A stretch of DNA of 64,000 bases from Streptomyces sp. NBC_01217 (lineage in GTDB: Bacteria > Actinomycetota > Actinomycetes > Streptomycetales > Streptomycetaceae), in contig NZ_CP108538.1 of NCBI RefSeq assembly GCF_035994185.1, forward strand, positions 5,805,501 through 5,869,500. Reading direction: 5' to 3'. Each line of letters begins with the position of its first letter. Positions within the stretch are counted from its first letter, which is position 1. Below, one piece after another: positions 19,386 through 29,597 of this stretch. Made by a program: the position numbers and the translations under genes. The notes under the pieces were generated by a model. That model was given only the letters and a program-made list of their open reading frames with translations, searched no databases and had not been told where the DNA came from.

Positions 19386-20474
<1,089 letters not shown>

Positions 20475-20490
20475 GCGCGTCGTCAGAGGT

Positions 20491-20520
20491 GGCCTGACCT
20501 GCAGTGATGCAGGTCGGGCC
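20491..20520. terminator. Hairpin downstream of ychF (island side)
   Basis: GGCC-T-GACCTGC, a 6-nt loop, GCAGGTC-G-GGCC: 7 plus 4 bp of stem with opposed single bases. It can end ychF transcription, and also that of the broken regulator from the other side. Confidence 0.55.
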
Positions 20521-20559
20521 ACACGGCTGTCCGTAACAGTCCGCACAACCTCGGTACCG

Positions 20560-21022
20560 CACTCGCGGGCCCGGAGCGCGTCCGTGGTCCTCTTCGACAA
20601 GCGCCAGCGCCAAGTCGATGCCGGCCGTCATACCCGCCGAGGTGTATGTGGCGCCGTCACGGACGGGGTTCGCGTCGGGATCGACGTGACTCGAGCCCGT
20701 GCGCGGCCTTCCAGCGCGTGGTCGCACGTTTACCGTTCAGGAGCCCGGCGGCTGCGAGGACGAACGCCCCGTTGATGGACACCATCCTGCCCACACCGAG
20801 TGCCAGAGTGGATACGGCCTCGATGACGCCACGTGCGCGACGGGATCACGGGGCTAGAGGTCCGTGCCGGACACCATGAGCGTGTGGGCGGCGGCCGAGG
20901 TTGCGGCGTTGTCGACCCCGATCCTGATTTCGAGGGAAGAGATGACGTACGCTCCGGTCGGCGAAAGCAGCACCATGCGGTAGTCGGCGCCGAACCTGTT
21001 CGCCTCCGCGAACAGCAAGCGA
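20560..21022 (-). pseudogene. Broken GlxA-type (DJ-1/PfpI) AraC regulator
   Basis: Two reading frames must be joined to see the protein. The N-terminal piece (near 21020-20860) reads LFAEANRFGADYRMVLL and IRIGVDNAATS, then TLMVSGTDL; the second piece (20830-20590) gives VSINGAFVLAAAGLLNGKRAT, TRWKAAHGLES and, after another shift, TSAGMTAGIDLALALVEEDHG. This order matches the DJ-1/PfpI sensory half of GlxA-type AraC regulators. The AraC DNA-binding half is missing, at least two frame changes are needed, and the 5' end joins a transposase remnant. It is a relic, not a gene. Confidence 0.65.
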
Positions 21023-21131
21023 TCCCGCCATGTCCGAGTTGCCGCGCTTCCGCCGCATAGAGCAGACGGCACTGCCGCTCGTTGAGATGCGGAGTCACCG
21101 CCTCGAACTTCGCACGCATCGGACTGATCAA
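21019..21131 (-). pseudogene. ISAzo13-like transposase N-terminal remnant
   Basis: The frame starting at 21131 reads MRAKFEAVTPHLNERQCRLL and AAEARQLGHGGIA, which is the typical opening of ISAzo13-family transposases. After this the frame runs into regulator sequence and the rest of the transposase is absent. Only about 37 residues remain; no terminal inverted repeats were found. Confidence 0.55.
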
Positions 21132-21204
21132 CTCATCGAAACGGCCCCTATGACATCAACGAACCCAAGTACCGTAAGTAACCCATAAATTCGCGACGCC
21201 TCCG

Positions 21205-21866
21205 TGGTGGGCGGCCGAACACGGGCACCTGTTGCCGCCCGCGACAGCGGTCCGGAACGGATACCCCGTTGGGGTCTGGGCCCAAAACCAGCGGACGGCC
21301 GGTCGCCTGGCGGCCGAGATCAACGAGTGCCGGGAGGCGGGGCTGCCGGTCGGCTCCATCGCAGGCGTGCTGTCCGAACAGCGCCGCGACGCCCTCGATG
21401 ACATCGACCCCTCGTGGTGGCCGCCGTGGGACGTCGGCTGGCAGCGCTGCTACCGGCTCTGCCACGACCTGTTCGAAGCCGGCGCCCCGCTGCTCAGCCG
21501 GCCCGGCGAGATGACGGTCCAGGGCGAGGACCTGGGCAAGTGGGTCCGGGCGCAGCGCCTGAACTGGGACACCCTGCTCCCCGCGCAGGCCTGGGTGCTG
21601 GGGAACAGGCTCGACCTCAGCCCCGCAGCGCCCGAGGAAAAGCCGCAGGCGTCCCGTACACGGGCCGACAAGTGGGCGGCGAACATTCGGGGGGCCGCCC
21701 GGCAGTTCCACGCCCGTGAGGAAGCCTCCAGGTGCCCAGGAAGCACGTCGAGGAAGTGGACGGCGTGCCATGCAAGTTGGGCATGTTCGTGGACAACGCT
21801 CGCCGCAGAGTCGACAAGCTGTCGCCGGAGCGGCACTCCACTGGCGTCAGACGGGGTTGGAGGAAG
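21205..21866 (+). pseudogene. Fragment of DEAD/DEAH helicase with helicase-associated repeats
   Basis: From 21205 the plus strand encodes WWAAEHGHLLPPATAVRNGY, GVWAQNQRTAGRLAAEINEC, WQRCYRLCHDLFEAG and LGKWVRAQRLNWDTLLPAQ: tandem tryptophan-rich helicase-associated repeats like those at the C-terminus of large Streptomyces helicases. Around 21740 the frame must shift to continue with VPRKHVEEVDGVPCKLGMFV and DNARRRVDKLSPERH. There is no start codon with a ribosome binding site and no helicase core, so this is a truncated, frameshifted tail. Its end overlaps the 3' end of the opposite-strand carboxymuconolactone decarboxylase-like gene. Confidence 0.6.
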
Positions 21867-22239
21867 TGTCCTCGGCGAAGACGGACAAGGCGACCTGGTA
21901 CGTCTCGAAGGCGCGGGCCGCTCCTGCGTAGACGGCGAGGTGGATGAAGAGGTCAACGATCTCGTCTTGAGTGACGCCGCTGTTGAGCGCGATGCGCAGC
22001 TGCCCGCGCAGCGGTTCGAACGCGCCCAGTGTCGCGGCGATGGCGACGGAGACCAGGGATCGGTCGTGCGTCGACAGTGCGGTACGGGTCCATGAGTCCC
22101 CGAACGCATGCACCGTCGCGACCTTGCGGAAGTCGGCTCCGGAGGCCGGTTCGCCGGGGCTCATCGGGAGTTCCAGGCGCTGACCCAAGAGTTCACTTGC
22201 GGTGTTTAGCGCCTGCTCGTAGACGTTGTCCGTGCCCAT
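21847..22239 (-). CDS. Carboxymuconolactone decarboxylase-like (AhpD-fold) protein
   Basis: The 130-residue all-helical protein matches the carboxymuconolactone decarboxylase family: THDRSLVSVAIAATLGAFEPL, LRGQLRIALNSGVTQDEIVDLFIHLAVYAG and AARAFETYQVALSVF. The AhpD CxxC pair is absent, so it is the decarboxylase-like rather than the peroxidase-partner type. ATG 22239 follows AAGGAG, a strong ribosome binding site. It is the last of four same-strand genes (SDR, SDR, aldehyde dehydrogenase, this one) and probably acts in the same oxidation pathway, but the substrate is unknown. Confidence 0.82.
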   Translation of the reverse strand: MGTDNVYEQALNTASELLGQRLELPMSPGEPASGADFRKVATVHAFGDSWTRTALSTHDRSLVSVAIAATLGAFEPLRGQLRIALNSGVTQDEIVDLFIHLAVYAGAARAFETYQVALSVFAEDTSSNPV

Positions 22240-22601
22240 CTCTACTCCTTGTTGGTTGGTCGTACGGGGTTGTGAGCCGGCGGTCCGGACCACCACGCAC
22301 CGTTCAGAGCTCAGTTGCGGGTCAGGGTGGTTCCCCACTCGTTGCGGGTTGCTGCTTCGTGGGGGTGGCGGGAAGGCTGTTCGTCGCACCAGGCTGTTTT
22401 CCACGCTCGCACCGTGTGCAATCGATCTGCTCGGTCGGGGGAACCGTCCGGGCTACAGGGCGTGGATCGAATGTCCCGTCCGGACTGCGACGGCGGGGCT
22501 CCCTCATGGTCTTCGAGCGGGGCCCCTGGGTGGTGGGCGGATCGGGGAGCAATGCGGGACGGGCCCTTCGTTCTCCGGCAGCCCGTCCCGCTGGGGTGTG
22601 A
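22240..22601. other. 362-bp gap, nothing recognised
   Basis: It lies between the aldehyde dehydrogenase and the carboxymuconolactone decarboxylase-like gene on the same strand. No protein motif or strong hairpin was seen. The gap is wide for a tight operon, so the last gene may have its own promoter. Confidence 0.5.
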
Positions 22602-24053
22602 CTACCGGGTGCGGGTGATCGACTTGTGCTCGACGTAGCCGGTCAGACCGACCTTGCCGTACTCGCGGCCGAGGCCGCTGGCCTTGTAGCCGCCGAAGGG
22701 GCCGTCGAAGCTGATCGGTGATCCGTTCAGCGTGACTGTGCCGGTGCGCAGCCGTCGGGCGGTGGCCAGGGCGCGGTCGGGATCCGAGGTCCAGATACCG
22801 CCGGACAGGCCGTACTCGGAGTCGTTGGCGATGCGGACGGCATCGTCATCGTCGTCGTAGGCGATGACGACCAGAACCGGGCCGAAAATCTCCTCCTGCG
22901 CGATGCGCATGCTGTTGTCGACGTCGGCGAACACGGTGGGGGTGACGTAGTTGCCCTTCTCCAGGCCTTCGGGGACGTGCGGGCCGCCGGTCACCAGACG
23001 CGCGCCGTCCTCGATACCGATGTTGATGTAGTCGATGACGCGCTGCTGCTGGTCACGGCGGATCATCGGGCCGATGAAGGTGTCGGGGGCGGAGGGGTCG
23101 CCGACCTTCAGTGACTCGACCATCTCCTTCACCGCGGTCACGACCTCCTCGTAACGGCTGCGGGGGGCCAGGATGCGGGTCTGCAGGATGCACGCCTCAC
23201 CGTTGTTGCCCAGGGAGCCGAACCGCAGACCTTGCATTGCGGCCGTAAGGTCCGCGTCGTCCAGGATCAGCGAGGCGGACTTGCCGCCCAGCTCCAGGCC
23301 CACCCGCTTCAGCTGCTCGCCGGCGATGGAGGCGATACGGCGGCCGACCCGCGTCGAACCGGTGAAGGAGATCTTGTCCACCCCGGCATGCGAGACGAGG
23401 TACTCGCTGGTCTGACGGTCTGCCGGAAGGACGCTGAGCACGCCCTCGGGCAGGCCGGCCTCATGCCAGAGGTCCGCCAGCAGGGCCATGCTCAGCGAGT
23501 TCTCCGGGGAGACCTTCAGCACGACGGTGTTACCGGCCAACAGGGCCGGGACCAGCTTGGCGGTGGCGGCGGAAAACGGCGAGTTCCACGGTATGACCGC
23601 CGCGACCACACCGATTGCCTCACGGCGCACGATGGTGTCGAAGGTCACCGACGGGTCGGACGGCGCGACGACCTCTTCCCAGCCGAACTCTTCGGCCGCT
23701 TTGAGGTAGGCGTTGACCTGGCGGGTCAGAAAGGGCTGGCCGACCTTGGTGAACCAGCCGGCGGAACCGTTCTCCGCTGAGATCGCCGCGGCAATCTCGT
23801 CGGCGCGGGCGGTACGCAGCGCGTCGTAACGACGCACGACTTCCTGACGTTCTGTCGGCGTGGTGTGTGGCCACGGACCGTGGTCGAAGGCGGCGCGGGC
23901 CGCGGTGACGGCCTTGTCCACGTCGGCCGGCGCGGCCTGCGCCACGCGGCCGAGCACTGACTGGTCGTGCGGGGAGAGGATGTCGAGCGTCAGCTCCGGA
24001 GCGCTGGGAGAAACCCAGGAACCACCGATGTACAGATTGTCGCGCACAGTCAT
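22602..24053 (-). CDS. NAD(P)-dependent aldehyde dehydrogenase
   Basis: The 483-residue protein oxidises an aldehyde to a carboxylate. Catalytic residues are present: Glu254 in GLELGGKSASL and Cys288 in NNGEACILQTRI. The Rossmann signature ISFTGSTRVGRRIA, the oxyanion Asn in VIPWNSPF and the late EEIFGPVLVVIAY are also intact. ATG 24053 is preferred over ATG 24062, because AAGGA abuts the latter and is correctly spaced for the former. Two short-chain dehydrogenases are upstream on the same strand, suggesting alcohol to aldehyde to acid steps. Confidence 0.93.
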   Translation of the reverse strand: MTVRDNLYIGGSWVSPSAPELTLDILSPHDQSVLGRVAQAAPADVDKAVTAARAAFDHGPWPHTTPTERQEVVRRYDALRTARADEIAAAISAENGSAGWFTKVGQPFLTRQVNAYLKAAEEFGWEEVVAPSDPSVTFDTIVRREAIGVVAAVIPWNSPFSAATAKLVPALLAGNTVVLKVSPENSLSMALLADLWHEAGLPEGVLSVLPADRQTSEYLVSHAGVDKISFTGSTRVGRRIASIAGEQLKRVGLELGGKSASLILDDADLTAAMQGLRFGSLGNNGEACILQTRILAPRSRYEEVVTAVKEMVESLKVGDPSAPDTFIGPMIRRDQQQRVIDYINIGIEDGARLVTGGPHVPEGLEKGNYVTPTVFADVDNSMRIAQEEIFGPVLVVIAYDDDDDAVRIANDSEYGLSGGIWTSDPDRALATARRLRTGTVTLNGSPISFDGPFGGYKASGLGREYGKVGLTGYVEHKSITRTR

Positions 24054-24311
24054 GTCTGTCATTCCTTCAAGTGCATTGGCGGATAAGGAAGAAGGAGGGA
24101 GATGTGGGGCGCGCATCGCCGGTGCGCACCCCGATCGGTGCTGCGCCGGCGGACGAGCTGCGGGTGCGGTCGGGGCTACGTTGCCGTCGGTCGTGGTCGC
24201 ACGCTCTGGGGCGTGCGCCCGGCAGCGCGCAGAAGTTCGTTGTGGTGATGTCGCCGGCAGTCGGGCAGGGGCGGACGCGGCCCGGGCGGCCGGCCCGCAG
24301 AGCGCTCCCGG

Positions 24312-25196
24312 TCAGCCCTTTTCGGGTGGGCGGACCATCTGGGCGACCGCGGAGTCGGCGAAATCGCCGAGTCCGTCGCGGTCGGTGGACATGCTGAGCT
24401 CACGCCACTGCGCGTCCTCCACAGCGCGTGCCCGGGCGATCTGCGGGGCGAGCCAGGCCGCGTCGGAGCCCAGAAGAAGCCGCGTCGGCGGGGCCGGCTC
24501 CTCGGTGAGGCGCAGGATCACGGCGGCCATCTTGGCCGGGTCACCACGCTGCACGTCGGGGTTGTTGTCGTAGGTTCGGGCGAAGGCGCCGACTGTTTCT
24601 TCGTACTCGTCGTGGATGTCCGGTACCGGTATCGGGGCGGCCGCCCAGGGGGTGCGGATGCCGCCCGGCTCCACCAGCGTGACGCGGATCCCGATGGGGC
24701 CGACCTCACGCGCGAGGATCTCGGTGAACCCGCCCAGCGCCCACTTCGACGACTGGTAGGCGCCCAGACCGGGCTGGTTGCGCCGGCCTCCGATGGTGGA
24801 GAGGTTGATGATGCTGCCCGAACGACGCGGGCGCATCACCGGAAGCACGGCACGCACCGTGTTGACCGCGCCGAAAAAATTGACGTTCACATCGCGGTGG
24901 AACTCGTCCTCGGACGTGTCCTCGATCGAGCCGATGCTTCGGACGCCGGCGCTGTTCACGAGCACGTCGACGGCTCCGAACTCGGCGACCGCGTGGGCGA
25001 CCGCGTCACGCGCGGAGGCCGGGTCGGTCACGTCCAGGGCGCGTACGCGCAGCCGGTCACGGTGCTCGTGGGGGACGGGCACCGTGTCGGGTGCCAGGTC
25101 GGTCGCCACGACGTTGTGGCCGGCGGCGAGCGCCGCCGCGACGACACGGCCGCCCAAGCCCCCGGCGGCACCGGCTATCAGAAAGGTCTTGGTCAT
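24312..25196 (-). CDS. Short-chain dehydrogenase/reductase (first copy)
   Basis: A 294-residue classical SDR with the nucleotide-binding motif LIAGAAGGLGGRVV, the acidic/NSAG strand VDVLVNSAGVRS, the catalytic Ser in INLSTIGGR and the Tyr-Lys pair in AYQSSKWALGGF. The C-terminal extension (EEPAPPTRLLLGSDAAWLA) is the same type as in the neighbouring SDR, so the two are probably duplicates that diverged. Start ATG 25196 is preceded by AGGGACGAG. It lies 135 bp downstream of the other SDR and 258 bp upstream of the aldehyde dehydrogenase. Confidence 0.9.
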   Translation of the reverse strand: MTKTFLIAGAAGGLGGRVVAAALAAGHNVVATDLAPDTVPVPHEHRDRLRVRALDVTDPASARDAVAHAVAEFGAVDVLVNSAGVRSIGSIEDTSEDEFHRDVNVNFFGAVNTVRAVLPVMRPRRSGSIINLSTIGGRRNQPGLGAYQSSKWALGGFTEILAREVGPIGIRVTLVEPGGIRTPWAAAPIPVPDIHDEYEETVGAFARTYDNNPDVQRGDPAKMAAVILRLTEEPAPPTRLLLGSDAAWLAPQIARARAVEDAQWRELSMSTDRDGLGDFADSAVAQMVRPPEKG

Positions 25197-25331
25197 TGTT
25201 TCTCGTCCCTACTGGGAATCGGTGGCCTACCCGGCGGAGCGGGGCAGTCGGTTGGCGCGGGAGGTCCGGGCTACGGTCGGCCCGGGGATCCGGTGCTTCG
25301 ATCACCCCGCCGCCGCGCCCGCACGGTGCCG

Positions 25332-26171
25332 TCAGGTGGTGGGGTAGTCCGTGGAACGGCTGACCTCGGCCCACTTTTTGGCCTCGTCCAGACGGCCTTC
25401 CTCCGAGCTGATCGCGATCCCCAGGGCATCGCTGCCGAGCAGCAGCCGGCGCGGGGGCTCCTCGGCATTCACGGCGCCGATGATCGCGCGGGCCATGCGG
25501 TCCGGGTCGCCGGGCTCGTTGCCGGCGTAGTCCGCGAACCGGGCCAGCCACAGGCCCACGGTCTCCTCGTAGTCGGGGGTTATGGGACCGGAAGGCTCCG
25601 CCGCACCCGCGGCCCAGCCGGTGCGGATGCCGCCCGGCTCGACGATGGTGACCTTGACACCGAACGGTGCCACCTCGTTCGCCAATGCCTCGGAGAACCC
25701 CTCGACGGCGAACTTCGCGGTCTGGTAGGCGCTCAGGCCCGGCGTACCACCCACACGTCCGCCGATTGAGGAGATCTGCACGATGTGCCCGGACCGCTGG
25801 CGGCGCATGACAGGAAGGACCGCCCGGGTCATGTTGACCACGCCGTACAGATTGGTATCGATCTGCGCGCGGAACTCATCCTCGGGGAAGTCCTCGATCG
25901 AGCCGCTGGTGGCGTAACCGGCGTTGTTGACGACTACGTCAACCGATCCGAACCGCTCCACCGCCGCGGCCACGACGTCCCGGGACTGGGAAGAGGATGT
26001 GACGTCCAGCGCCACCGCCTCCAGTTGGTCCGGGTGCTCGGTCCTCAGGGAAGCCAGCGCCTCTGGCCTGCGGGAAGTCACCACAACGTTGTCGCCGGCC
26101 TCCAGGGCCGCGAGCACCAGAGCCTTACCCAGGCCCTGCGAGCCCCCCGTGATCAGCCAAGTCCGTGCCAT
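25332..26171 (-). CDS. Short-chain dehydrogenase/reductase (second copy)
   Basis: A 279-residue classical SDR: LITGGSQGLGKALV cofactor loop, VDVVVNNAGYAT, QISSIGGRVGG, and catalytic AYQTAKFAVEGFSEAL. The end, EEPPRRLLLGSDALGIA, aligns with the other SDR. It is the promoter-proximal gene of the four-gene set and starts at 26171, opposite the TetR gene at 26341. The AT-rich intergenic region with GATGC repeats is the likely control site. The specific alcohol or ketone substrate is unknown. Confidence 0.9.
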   Translation of the reverse strand: MARTWLITGGSQGLGKALVLAALEAGDNVVVTSRRPEALASLRTEHPDQLEAVALDVTSSSQSRDVVAAAVERFGSVDVVVNNAGYATSGSIEDFPEDEFRAQIDTNLYGVVNMTRAVLPVMRRQRSGHIVQISSIGGRVGGTPGLSAYQTAKFAVEGFSEALANEVAPFGVKVTIVEPGGIRTGWAAGAAEPSGPITPDYEETVGLWLARFADYAGNEPGDPDRMARAIIGAVNAEEPPRRLLLGSDALGIAISSEEGRLDEAKKWAEVSRSTDYPTT

Positions 26172-26260
26172 GACGCGTGCCTCGTTTCGTCACTTGTTCA
26201 CCACCCCGAACGGGACAGCAACTCCACTGTAGACGAAATCGCCTTAATTACAACAAGAAT

Positions 26261-26300
26261 GATGCAGTAATTAGTAGTATTGCATCTCACAATGGGATGC
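26261..26300. promoter_or_regulatory. Putative TetR operator with repeated GATGC half-sites
   Basis: GATGCA at 26261 and TGCATC at 26281 form a 26-bp imperfect palindrome with additional inner matches. A third half-site, GATGC at 26296-26300, pairs again with GCATC at 26282-26286. The block lies in an unusually AT-rich stretch between the divergent SDR and TetR genes. Confidence 0.55.
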
Positions 26301-26340
26301 TCGACATCTAAGTGGAGCTCCTGAGTAGAATGGCGGAATC

Positions 26341-26886
26341 ATGAGAGCTGACGCCGCGCGTAATCTGACTGCCGTCCTCCATGCCGGAGCTCAGCTCCTG
26401 GCCGAGGACCCTGGTACTTCCATGGCGGCCATCGCCAGTGCCGCGGGGGTGGACCGGACCACCGTCCACCGCCGTTTCGCAAACCGTGAAGTCCTGCTCA
26501 GCGCCGTTTTCCAGGCCAAGCTCGACTCCGCCGAACGCGTTCTGGACGAAGCCCGTCTGGTGGAGGCCCCCCTGCCGGTCGCCCTCCACCGCTACCTGGA
26601 GGGGATCATCCCCGTCAGCCGCGAATGGCCGGTCGACACGCGCCTCATGATGCAGAAAGACCCCGCCGCCCGGGTCCGCCGACAGGAGCAGAGTGCGCGC
26701 CTCGACGCCTTCATCCGCCGCGCGTTGGACGAGGGCTACCTGCGCGCCGACGTTGACGCGGCGTGGGCGCGGACGATCCTGGACGAACTCGTCGACACTG
26801 TCGCCCACCGGTTCCCCGACCTGGAACCTCCTCAGGCCGCCGATCTTGTCGCCGCCACCCTCCTGAACGGCCTCGGCACGACCTGA
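26341..26886 (+). CDS. TetR/AcrR family transcriptional regulator
   Basis: The 181-residue regulator has an N-terminal helix-turn-helix, AAIASAAGVDRTTVHRRFANREVLLSAVF, at about residues 30-58, followed by a helical ligand-binding domain with no recognised ligand signature. ATG 26341 lies 9 nt after TAGAAT and has little leader. It is divergent from the SDR-SDR-aldehyde dehydrogenase set over a 169-bp intergenic region carrying palindromic half-sites, so it probably represses that set and itself. The inducer could be an aldehyde or alcohol substrate; this is inference. Confidence 0.88.
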   Translation: MRADAARNLTAVLHAGAQLLAEDPGTSMAAIASAAGVDRTTVHRRFANREVLLSAVFQAKLDSAERVLDEARLVEAPLPVALHRYLEGIIPVSREWPVDTRLMMQKDPAARVRRQEQSARLDAFIRRALDEGYLRADVDAAWARTILDELVDTVAHRFPDLEPPQAADLVAATLLNGLGTT

Positions 26887-26949
26887 CACCTCACCCACCG
26901 CGGAACAGGGCGAGCGCCGAACACGCGACACCGCTACCCGGCCGACCTG

Positions 26950-27015
26950 ATGCGATCCTGGCCTGCGATCACGCCGTGTCCTCTGCGTCGGTCTTGCCCT
27001 CGCCGCGGTAGCCCT
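26950..27015 (-). pseudogene. IS110-family transposase remnant
   Basis: The minus strand reads GYRGEGKTDAEDTA and then, after a one-base shift, VIAGQDRIR. This matches the conserved RuvC-like N-terminal stretch of actinobacterial IS110 transposases (GYRGEGKTDAKDA-VIADQARMR). About 65 bp survive, directly abutting the truncated thioredoxin reductase. Confidence 0.6.
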
Positions 27016-27017
27016 TG

Positions 27018-27720
27018 GGGCCTCAAGGAGCTGACCGACTCCGAAGGCACCGTCCACCGCGCCAAGACGGTGATCGTCGCCACCGGCTCCGGCTACCGCA
27101 AGCTCGGACTGCCGGGTGAGGAGGATCTGTCGGGGCGCGGGGTGTCTTGGTGCGCGACGTGCGACGGCTTCTTCTTCCGTGACCGGGACATCGTCGTGGT
27201 CGGCGGCGGGGACACCGCCATGGAAGAAGCGACCTTCCTGACCCGCTTCGCCCGCTCGGTGACGATCGTGCACCGCCGCAGCCGCCTGCGAGCCTCGCAG
27301 GTGATGCAGAGCCGCGCATTCGCCGACGACAAGATCTCCTTCGCCTTCGACCGTGAGATCGCCGAACTCCACGAGAGCAGCGGCATGCTCGCCGGAGTGA
27401 CGCTGCGCGATGTCTTCACCGAGGAGATCCGCCGCCTGGACGTGACCGGGCTGTTCATCGCGATCGGGCACGACCCCCGCACTGAGCTCTTCGCCGACCA
27501 GCTCGACCTCGACTCAGAGGGTTACATCACCGTCCAAGCCCCCACCACCCGCACCGGCATCCCCGGGGTGTTCGCCGTCGGTGACGTCGTCGACCACTCC
27601 TACCGCCAAGCCATCACCGCGGCCGGCACCGGCTGCGCCGCCGCCATGGACGCCGAGCGCTACCTCGCCGGCATCGGCGACGCGTCTGCGGCCAGCGAGC
27701 CGGCCCAGGCAATGGCCTGA
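27018..27720 (+). pseudogene. trxB: 5'-truncated thioredoxin reductase
   Basis: The frame encodes the last two thirds of a TrxB: AKTVIVATGSGYRKLGLPGE, the redox-active SWCATCDGFFFRDRD, the NADPH-binding VVVGGGDTAMEEATFL, IVHRRSRLRASQVM, and the FAD-binding end GVFAVGDVVDHSYRQAITAAGTGC. The first 100 or so residues, including the N-terminal FAD GxGxxG motif, are replaced by IS110-remnant sequence, so a functional enzyme is unlikely. The frame is open back to an ATG at 26950, but that leader (PCPLRRSCPRRGSPWG) is not protein-like. Confidence 0.8.
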
Positions 27721-27820
27721 CCCGAGGACTCACGGAACCGCCGGTATGGCTCCTTCGCGTACCGCCGGCGCGGCCGTCCGGACCTGAGGCTGGAACGGTG
27801 AGAACCGATGATGGTAGGCC

Positions 27821-27860
27821 CGGACTGCCTGCGGAGGGCAGGCGGTCCGCAGGCAGTCCG
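27821..27860. repeat. Perfect 15-bp stem-loop near right island end
   Basis: CGGACTGCCTGCGGA at 27821-27835 and its exact complement at 27846-27860, with a 10-nt loop. It lies about 107 bp inside the right 17-bp repeat, downstream of the trxB remnant. It could be the trxB terminator or a recombination-associated structure. Confidence 0.6.
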
Positions 27861-27966
27861 CAGAACGCTCGTAGACCCCGGTCGAAAGCCAACGCAAGGC
27901 AACGCCAGAGTGCCTGGTCAGAGCCGTGATCGGCGCTCCACCGCAGGTCAGATTCGACCTGGATAC

Positions 27967-27983
27967 GTTCCGCTTCAACGTGT
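27967..27983 (+). repeat. Right 17-bp direct repeat (ychF 3' end copy)
   Basis: An exact copy of 20456-20472. It is followed by an in-register stop (TAG instead of TGA), so it would still encode FRFNV-stop. Confidence 0.7.
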
Positions 27984-28032
27984 AGCGGGCGCGATGCGGT
28001 ACGTCACTGATCTGGTAAAGAGGCAGGCCAGA

Positions 28033-28063
28033 AGGGGCCCGGCTCTTCCGAGTCGGGGCCCCT
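28033..28063 (+). terminator. Strong hairpin beyond right repeat, possible original ychF terminator
   Basis: AGGGGCCC at 28033-28040 pairs with GGGCCCCT at 28056-28063; an inner GGCTC/GAGTC stem continues to a TTCC loop with one bulged G. A TTTT run follows at 28067-28070. It lies 50 nt after the second copy of the ychF end. Confidence 0.75.
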
Positions 28064-28104
28064 GGGTTTTCCCCCGTCGCTCCATCAGGGCACCTGGTGA
28101 AGTA

Positions 28105-28157: not shown

Positions 28158-29597
28158 GTGGAGTTTCAAGGTCGGGCCGGAGATCTTGAGCTGCTGGCTG
28201 AGCAGTACCGGACAGTGGCAGAGGCGGTTGGAGGCACTCGGGGGCGGGCTGTGATCATGACGGGCCGGCGCCGAGTAGGGAAGTCGCGACTGGTCCAGGA
28301 GTTCTGCGACCGCTCGGGAGCGCCGTACGTGGTGTTTCAGGCCACCCGTGGGCGCAACCCTGTGACGGAGCGCGCCGACTTTGCCGCGACGCTCGCGCAG
28401 TCGCTACTGCCTGGGGCGGAGCTGGTCGCCGGCCTCCAGGCGCAGGACTGGAACCAGGCCCTGCGCTCTCTGGCGCTCGCGGTACCCGATGACTCGCCCA
28501 GCATCGCGGTGATCGACGAGGTGCCCTGGCTCGTCGAGCAGGATCAGGAATTCGAGGGCGCACTCCAAACTGTCTGGGACCGTCATTTGTCTTCCAAGCC
28601 CGTGCTTCTGCTGCTGGTTGGCAGCGATACATCGGTGATGGAGGCACTGCAGTCGTACGGACGCCCGTTCTTCGGCCGGGCAGCGAAAATGACCGTCCAC
28701 CCCCTGAACCTGGCCGACGTACAGGCCATGACCGGGCTCGACGCCGCCGAAGCTGTCGACGCCCAGTTGATCACTGGCGGATTCCCCGAGATCGTGCAGT
28801 CATGGCGGCCGGGAATGGGGCGTACAGCCTTCTTGCAGGCGTCGGTCGCCAATCCTCTCTCGCCCCTGCTGGTGGCCGGCGAGCTGTCCCTGCTGGGCGA
28901 ATTCCCCGAGGCTTCGCACTCACGGGCCGTGCTGGAAGCGGTTGGCAGTGGTGAGCGCACGTTCAGCGCAATCGCAGCCCAGGCCGGCGGCGCCAGCGCT
29001 CTGCCGTCCGGCACGCTCTCCCCGTTGCTGGCCATGCTGCAGGCCAAGCGAGTCCTGGCCGCTGATCTCCCCCTGTCGGTCAAGCCGGACAGCAAGAACA
29101 AGCGCTACCGGATCGCCGACCCGTATCTGCGGTTCTGGCTGGCGTTCCTGGCACGCGCGATCCCACTCATCGAGCGAGGCCGCGGTGACTTGGCGCTGGA
29201 ACGCATCGAGCGGTCATGGACCAGTTGGCGCGGGCGAGCGGTCGAGCCACTGATCCGCGAGTCCTTGCTGCGTCTGATGCCCAATGATGAGTGGCCCGAG
29301 ACCGAGGCGATCGGCGGTTGGTGGAACCGTCAGAACAACCCCGAGATCGACCTCATCGGTGCAGACCGCGAGCCGGTGGCCCGGCAGGTGTCCTTCGTCG
29401 GGTCGGTCAAGTGGCTGGAGACCCAGCCCTTCGGCCGTCATGAGTACGACGCCTTGGTGCGCGACGTGCTCGCCGTCCCCGGTACCACCTCGGATACTCC
29501 ACTGGTCGCGGTCTCCCGCTGTGGGGTGACCGATGATCTGCCGCTCACCGCGCACTGGGGGCCGGAGGACCTCGTACGGGCGTGGCAGCCCCGATAG
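28158..29597 (+). CDS. Archaeal-type P-loop ATPase (DUF234-like C-terminus)
   Basis: The 479-residue protein has an N-terminal AAA-like ATPase: Walker A TGRRRVGKSRLVQEFCDRSG, Walker B SIAVIDEVPWLVE, and sensor-like LLLLVGSDTSVMEAL. A helical or winged region follows (SRAVLEAVGSGERTFSAIAAQ), then the C-terminal DUF234-type nuclease-like module with IADPYLRFWLAFL and EIDLIGADREPVARQVSFVGSVKW; the E-x-D-L-x-G and Gln/Lys residues resemble a PD-(D/E)xK core. GTG 28158 has AGGGG about 6 nt upstream. The family is widespread in mobile DNA and its role is unproven. It is not linked to neighbours by operon. Confidence 0.82.
   Translation: MEFQGRAGDLELLAEQYRTVAEAVGGTRGRAVIMTGRRRVGKSRLVQEFCDRSGAPYVVFQATRGRNPVTERADFAATLAQSLLPGAELVAGLQAQDWNQALRSLALAVPDDSPSIAVIDEVPWLVEQDQEFEGALQTVWDRHLSSKPVLLLLVGSDTSVMEALQSYGRPFFGRAAKMTVHPLNLADVQAMTGLDAAEAVDAQLITGGFPEIVQSWRPGMGRTAFLQASVANPLSPLLVAGELSLLGEFPEASHSRAVLEAVGSGERTFSAIAAQAGGASALPSGTLSPLLAMLQAKRVLAADLPLSVKPDSKNKRYRIADPYLRFWLAFLARAIPLIERGRGDLALERIERSWTSWRGRAVEPLIRESLLRLMPNDEWPETEAIGGWWNRQNNPEIDLIGADREPVARQVSFVGSVKWLETQPFGRHEYDALVRDVLAVPGTTSDTPLVAVSRCGVTDDLPLTAHWGPEDLVRAWQPR

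Follow-up and report, generated by a model that had tools for sequence, protein, structure and literature searches.

The stretch analysed here, referred to as the window, comprises 64,000 nucleotides of Streptomyces sp. NBC_01217 (contig NZ_CP108538.1, positions 5,805,501 to 5,869,500), and the subject is an island of about 7.5 kb that lies between two copies of the 3' end of the gene ychF. Window positions carry the prefix W; G000 is the source genome (9,034,013 bases), Gnnn are genomes and Lnnn the loci or stretches compared. The 17-mer GTTCCGCTTCAACGTGT forms the end of ychF at W20456-20472 and recurs on the same strand at W27967-27983, 7,511 bp away. The left copy is followed by GA, completing a TGA stop codon, and the right copy by AG, completing TAG. 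An exact repeat of the ychF end some 7.5 kb downstream, again with a stop after it, had been claimed in the original prediction, and both copies were located as described. Scanning the entire G000 with up to 2 mismatches gave five sites: the two exact window copies, one site with 1 mismatch and two with 2 mismatches. The reversed pattern, used as a control, gave 0 sites. The exact pair is unique in the genome, and the 17-mer is not spread over many unrelated places. The features of the region are as follows (all coordinates are window positions).

19386-20474, + strand: ychF, the target gene, with final bases and stop apparently derived from the island; open reading frame (ORF) with a homolog in 61/61 genomes searched
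20456-20472, + strand: attL, the left 17-mer copy (sequence repeat), with the 14-bp core TTCCGCTTCAACGT at 20457-20470
20475-20550, + strand: left attachment arm, a hairpin-like stretch with the direct-repeat motif GTCCGTAACAGTCCGC at 20529-20544; similarity to L188 and L220
21232-22092, + strand: ORF with a partial helicase-associated (HA) domain; PF03457, 33.4 bits, profile 29-63 of 64
21850-22404, - strand: carboxymuconolactone decarboxylase (CMD) family protein; PF02627
22605-24116, - strand: aldehyde dehydrogenase; PF00171, 499.5 bits
24315-25196, - strand: short-chain dehydrogenase (SDR); PF00106
25335-26171, - strand: second SDR; PF00106
26341-26886, + strand: TetR-type regulator; PF00440
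26950-27720, + strand: pyridine-nucleotide reductase without the start of its domain; PF07992, profile 89-291 of 291
27845-27966, + strand: right attachment arm, beginning at the motif GTCCGCAGGCAGTCCGC (27845-27861); similarity to right ends of Int-A elements and short units
27967-27983, + strand: attR, the right 17-mer copy, which is the native end of ychF including the TAG stop; found at the corresponding position of the G228 empty site
27984-28074, + strand: native 3' flank of ychF with a terminator-like hairpin, moved off ychF by the island; similarity to G228 and G001
28158-29597, + strand: right flank with a DUF234/ATPase_2 gene (Pfam), perhaps an older layer of the same site; behind ychF in G228

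Attachment sites, empty sites and arms

The copies of the attachment (att) site share a 14-bp core, TTCCG(C/G)TTCAA(C/T)GT. To the left of it the two window copies diverge; to its right, copies vary in the stop and in the final base of the Val triplet. Elements carrying the integrase Int-A, described below, often supply GTC TAA beside ychF, the displaced end being for example GTG TGA or GTG TAG. In the window the target gene is left intact by the end of the island, with ychF open through FRFNV and a stop. The third 17-mer copy of G000, with 1 mismatch, is found 1.9 Mb away at C1:7746625 (L075:8560-8800; C1 about 7746560-7746800); it is preceded by more ychF-like sequence and followed by a 3' flank of the ychF type.

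The DNA following ychF was taken from 36 genomes of the same genus and three of the same order, some of these stretches ending at contig ends. The direct junction of ychF with the sequence near 28.0 kb, which had been suggested as a check, was found in G228, where ychF is followed directly by the sequence starting at W27984. The window flanks joined without the island align with G228 over 2,907 bp at 95.3% identity with 3 gaps, which makes this genome an empty site. Its ychF stop is TAG, as at the right copy of the window, while the left copy has TGA. The flank W27984-28074 is 96% identical to the DNA behind the G228 ychF, and W27967-28064 is 80% identical to G001 over 99 nt. In G011, a 62% homolog of W28033-29528 stands immediately behind ychF. 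In G024, the same flanks (up to W20545 on the left; W27845-28999 on the right, 83%) surround an element of 17.8 kb that encodes a tyrosine integrase. None of the relatives compared was seen to have the island content in the same order behind ychF. The empty site of G228, the G024 element between the same flanks and the displaced native end agree with the predicted integrative element at the 3' end of ychF.

The variable DNA behind ychF is not confined to the island. A further att copy occurs in G228 beyond the ATPase gene, so that the ATPase gene of the window may belong to an older layer at this locus. Relative to G005, G019 and G029, the closest relatives, synteny restarts only near W42.6 kb, and the variable region therefore exceeds the island as delimited here. 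For the ORFs at W34433-36624, which have no NCBIfam match, the DNA at W35211-36441 was found to be 88% identical to sequence right behind the right att copy of G018, possibly another older layer. The G024 element encodes a MobA/VirD2-like relaxase and an AlbA_2/NB-ARC STAND-like protein (L069:5806-7503, L069:14456-16780); judged from these proteins, it may be mobilizable and carry a defence gene.

Thirteen chosen right ends were aligned: one from the window, five from Int-A elements, six from toxin-antitoxin units and the last from another unit. Their alignment begins at the motif GTCCGC-N4-AGTCCGC, about 123 bp before the core, and upstream of this motif nothing is common to all. On the left, W20484-20550 is 82% identical to L188 (67 nt) and W20485-20545 80% identical to L220 (61 nt), the matching stretches sitting just inside other att copies. 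When up to 2 mismatches are allowed, 13 of 392 genomes have the left-arm subtype of the window.

Integrases beside ychF

The G024 integrase, Int-A, is a protein of 372 aa with PF00589 and PF22022, encoded convergently with ychF with 115 bp between the last codons. Using it as a query, 61 loci from named genomes were obtained, and 50 of them contained an integrase or a piece of one whose best segment was at least 55% identical to that of G024, the cut for the main set. The suggested search for integrases of elements ending in ychF was answered by 36 of these 50 loci, where ychF adjoins (at 115-123 bp in 35, at 23 bp in one); an att core outside ychF adjoins in another 7. Hosts include S. rhizosphaerihabitans, S. 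gelaticus, S. dysideae, S. lydicus, S. narbonensis, two Kitasatospora and others. Among the 392 Streptomyces genomes sampled, 14 had an Int-A copy of at least 91% identity over at least 340 residues (that of G196 with an internal stop), and 4 more had partial copies.

Int-B, a second tyrosine-integrase family, is about 28% identical to Int-A and occurs in 30 of the 392 genomes (matches at E <=1e-80). While Int-A stands at the ychF side, Int-B mostly lies at the opposite end of the element, its C terminus facing the right att copy, as in G067. The exact core follows the Int-B gene in 15 of the 30 loci, at 104-176 bp in 13 and at 741 and 825 bp in 2.

In L088, L110, L146 and L148 the Int-A genes are 91-95% identical to the rest and the preceding gene, ending in IREYY, is not ychF. 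A target switch of Int-A was considered for these loci and may still apply to L088 and L110; in G293 and G379, ychF with an att copy was found about 7.5 kb from the integrase. A tRNA target was discarded (ARAGORN finds 0 tRNA in the window). A phage origin was rejected, with one Int-A relative (46%) and no Int-B in viral contigs and 2505 matches in phage records, all below 60%. So was a plasmid origin, for which at least 5000 plasmid-record matches were obtained, all below 60% among the matches listed.

Content and origin of the island

Eight island ORFs were scanned with Pfam (nine in the window; minimum ORF length 80 aa). The island had been described as mosaic and partly broken, and this holds for the HA domain and the pyridine-nucleotide reductase, both incomplete; it does not hold for the CMD, aldehyde dehydrogenase, two SDR and TetR frames, which are open. 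By eye, W20560-21130 gives the impression of a broken AraC/GlxA-like gene, the single scanned ORF there having no Pfam match. The segment W22603-26915 is colinear at two other places in G256 (87% and 85%) and partly elsewhere; in the same search, 246/246 genomes had some match to the query, mostly to a single gene among the matches listed. W27023-27690 is about 80% identical to copies in many genomes. In blastn comparison with 67 other stretches the island content was absent save for the arms and three further matches: dehydrogenase genes at 60-62% in two cases, and 93 bp at 73% in the third (W21021-21113, L214).

The statement that no integrase remains was upheld. None was found by Pfam among the nine scanned window ORFs; G000 has 21 Phage_integrase (PF00589) matches, the nearest on the contig of the window being about 0.76 Mb off. 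The Int-A protein gave only noise against the window (best E 0.22), and Int-B had no match in G000 at E 1e-80. Transfer and replication genes, by which integrative and conjugative elements (ICEs) and their actinomycete counterparts (AICEs) are recognized, were absent from the Pfam results of the island. Lacking an integrase, the island is at most a remnant or non-autonomous. It fits a remnant of the type of a cis-mobilizable element (CIME) with an aldehyde dehydrogenase/SDR/TetR block, in which attL and attR are kept and the genes of integration and transfer are missing.

The sequence comparisons show an empty site, another element in the same site, the native ychF end in a displaced position, arms that are conserved, and integrases of a matching family next to ychF in relatives. 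On these grounds, the window island is regarded as the remains of a mobile island at the ychF end, a probable hotspot for islands and tiny toxin-antitoxin units in Streptomyces, which were apparently placed there by dedicated integrases. It is highly likely that an Int-A-class tyrosine integrase inserted the island at the ychF end via the 14-bp core. The enzyme would exchange strands within TTCCGCTTCAACGT; the island would supply its own last base or bases and stop, and the native stop and terminator would be shifted to the right end. The protein end FRFNV would thereby be kept. We infer that Int-A was the enzyme here, either the island's own and since lost or one acting in trans, and likewise the order of events and any remaining ability of the island to move.

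Several observations weigh against insertion by Int-A. No mobility genes are among the island content, and the enzyme is assigned by arm similarity alone, because no integrase is left and the closest Int-A relative in G000 is 40% identical. This similarity is moderate, the right arm of the window being 64-70% identical to the other twelve over 166-168 columns. No intact integrase was found with the window's left-arm subtype; 20 loci checked with the Int-A and Int-B queries yielded one Int-A piece, which belongs to another subtype. Moreover, 7 of the 50 main Int-A loci adjoin neither ychF nor a core (2 with ychF elsewhere on the locus, 1 at a contig end, 4 other), and the 11 of 61 loci below 55% identity have no ychF in their flanks. 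Half of the Int-B loci (15 of 30) have no core within 1.5 kb after the gene.

Alternatively, the island could be its own kind of unit, moved by an integrase specific to the left-arm subtype and distinct from Int-A and Int-B. The recurrence of this subtype in 13 genomes, with no intact integrase beside it in the loci checked by the two queries, speaks for this possibility, but the right arm can be aligned with its Int-A counterparts, beginning at the same point, and a separate enzyme is considered unlikely. Much less probably, the second copy originated when a 3' fragment of ychF was duplicated or captured through homology, the intervening DNA being brought in by ordinary recombination with no site-specific integrase. 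Such an origin would accord with an island devoid of integrase and with the 1-mismatch copy 1.9 Mb off between ychF-like and 3'-flank-like sequence. However, the similarity is confined to a short core with unrelated sequence leftward, islands of other species share the arms and not pieces of ychF, the empty site is clean and the integrases stand at a fixed distance from ychF. A chance match of the 17-mer is practically negligible, being contradicted by the two exact sites in G000 against 0 in the control, by the same arrangement in other species and by the empty site.

The probable hotspot in other Streptomyces and in comparison with known systems

The spread of the site was surveyed in the 392 Streptomyces genomes with the motif TTCCGSTTCAAYGTNTRR and its reverse as a control. 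At least one site was found in 359 genomes and at least two in 118, the control giving 0 throughout. Of these 118 genomes, 101 have two copies in the same orientation on one contig, no more than 60 kb apart. Of the 17 others, 11 have the copies on different contigs (G074, G109, G174, G225, G266, G300, G310, G336, G337, G343, G396), and in 6 they are far apart or on opposite strands (G099, G120, G128, G129, G309, G368). A further 60 stretches were drawn from other Streptomyces genomes picked for paired motif copies. At L225, L223, L224, L182, L188 and other ychF loci, arrays of att-to-att units of about 0.8-2 kb were observed, which recur between species and carry toxin-antitoxin-like, Uma2 and other small genes.

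All att-to-att units of up to 3.6 kb in the compared stretches, remnants included, were collected as mini-units; these 41 form a non-random set because 16 stretches had been chosen for closely spaced copies. Proteins were assigned by blastp against twelve toxin-antitoxin representatives at 1e-5. A toxin-antitoxin-like protein was found in 30 of the 41, and in 19 the representative itself is supported by Pfam (ParE, Phd/YefM, YoeB, PIN, VapB, Gp49); 2 of the remaining units have Uma2 only and 9 have neither. Fam 1, the most frequent of the toxin-like proteins, lacks a Pfam hit and is called PIN-like because it is 49% identical to a PIN-matching protein. Its units recur across species (G203 and G029 are 96.8% identical over 981 bp), standing first behind ychF in G019, G029, G077, G094 and G203 and farther along the array in G081, G269 and G290. 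ParE (PF05016), taken as a yardstick, gave 18 matches in 14 genomes, 12 of them inside a ychF array or no more than about 250 bp from one, and 6 elsewhere; nine of these genomes had been preselected for such a unit, and in the other five (G000, G075, G081, G197, G228) 3 of 6 matches are at the array.

A rough, motif-based sorting of the right arms, from which L217 at 12137 and L170 at 129 (a repeat of L169 at 13579) were excluded, placed 15 of 16 units with Int-A genes or pieces and 6 of 8 fam 1 units in class A. Class B2 received 3/3 YefM-YoeB units, 8/11 ParE/Phd units and 5 of 13 Int-B units, the other Int-B right arms being 5 B1, 2 A and 1 unclassified. No integrase was found in class C units with the Int-A query. 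A weak, identity-based test of transfer showed unit identity above ychF identity in 10 of 24 pairs. The arms that some mini-units share with integrase elements suggest an integron-like capture in trans.

The findings point to a protein-gene integration hotspot, with repeated ends in about a quarter of the sampled Streptomyces (101/392); it would explain a large part of the variation in the DNA following ychF there. From the two candidate integrases, with a defined core and arms, tools for chromosomal integration at a conserved locus could be developed. If the mini-units are indeed mobile in trans, they would constitute a cassette system independent of the integron and illustrate the spread of minimal addiction modules.

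Integrons consist of arrays of small units, many with toxin-antitoxin genes, and in this they resemble the arrays behind ychF. Unlike integrons, the sites here look like phage-type att cores with arms, and Int-B is not IntI by the curated cut-off, scoring 50.3 of 265 and 35.5 of 435 bits against the integron-integrase models. Quite possibly, if tentatively, the ychF end is an integron-like platform without an integron, used by at least two tyrosine-integrase families, which would capture and stack arm-bearing units about 1 kb long, many of them with a single toxin-antitoxin pair, and move them in trans; the window island would be a large member.

No report of integration at the ychF 3' end was recognized in the literature searched, subscription journals and supplements lying outside the search. 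In pneumococcal prophages an integrase-bearing element also adjoins ychF, with attB upstream, between ychF and the preceding gene and touching the promoter (PMC6375853, PMC8637289), whereas the site here is the 3' end of the gene. AICEs and ICEs of Streptomyces mostly use tRNA genes and some protein genes such as rlmN (PMC9513070, PMC3218068), 14 insertions in protein-coding genes being given in PMC9513070. They have in common with the ychF site integrases, direct repeats, accretion and different integrases at one site; the window island differs in having no integrase, replication or transfer gene, and ychF is not named as a target in the excerpted passages of these two papers. PAISt, an island of Streptomyces turgidiscabies with modular excision (PMC4057263), likewise occupies the 3' end of a protein gene; it differs in its target, which is bacA, and in its 8-bp palindromic site. 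CIMEs, described within the accretion of ICEs and integrative and mobilizable elements (IMEs) as att-flanked islands without integration or transfer genes that stack in tandem at a gene end (PMC5704250), share with the window island the same att-flanked structure devoid of these genes and the stacking at a gene end; what distinguishes the present case from that account is the target ychF and the many units of about 1 kb with a toxin-antitoxin pair.

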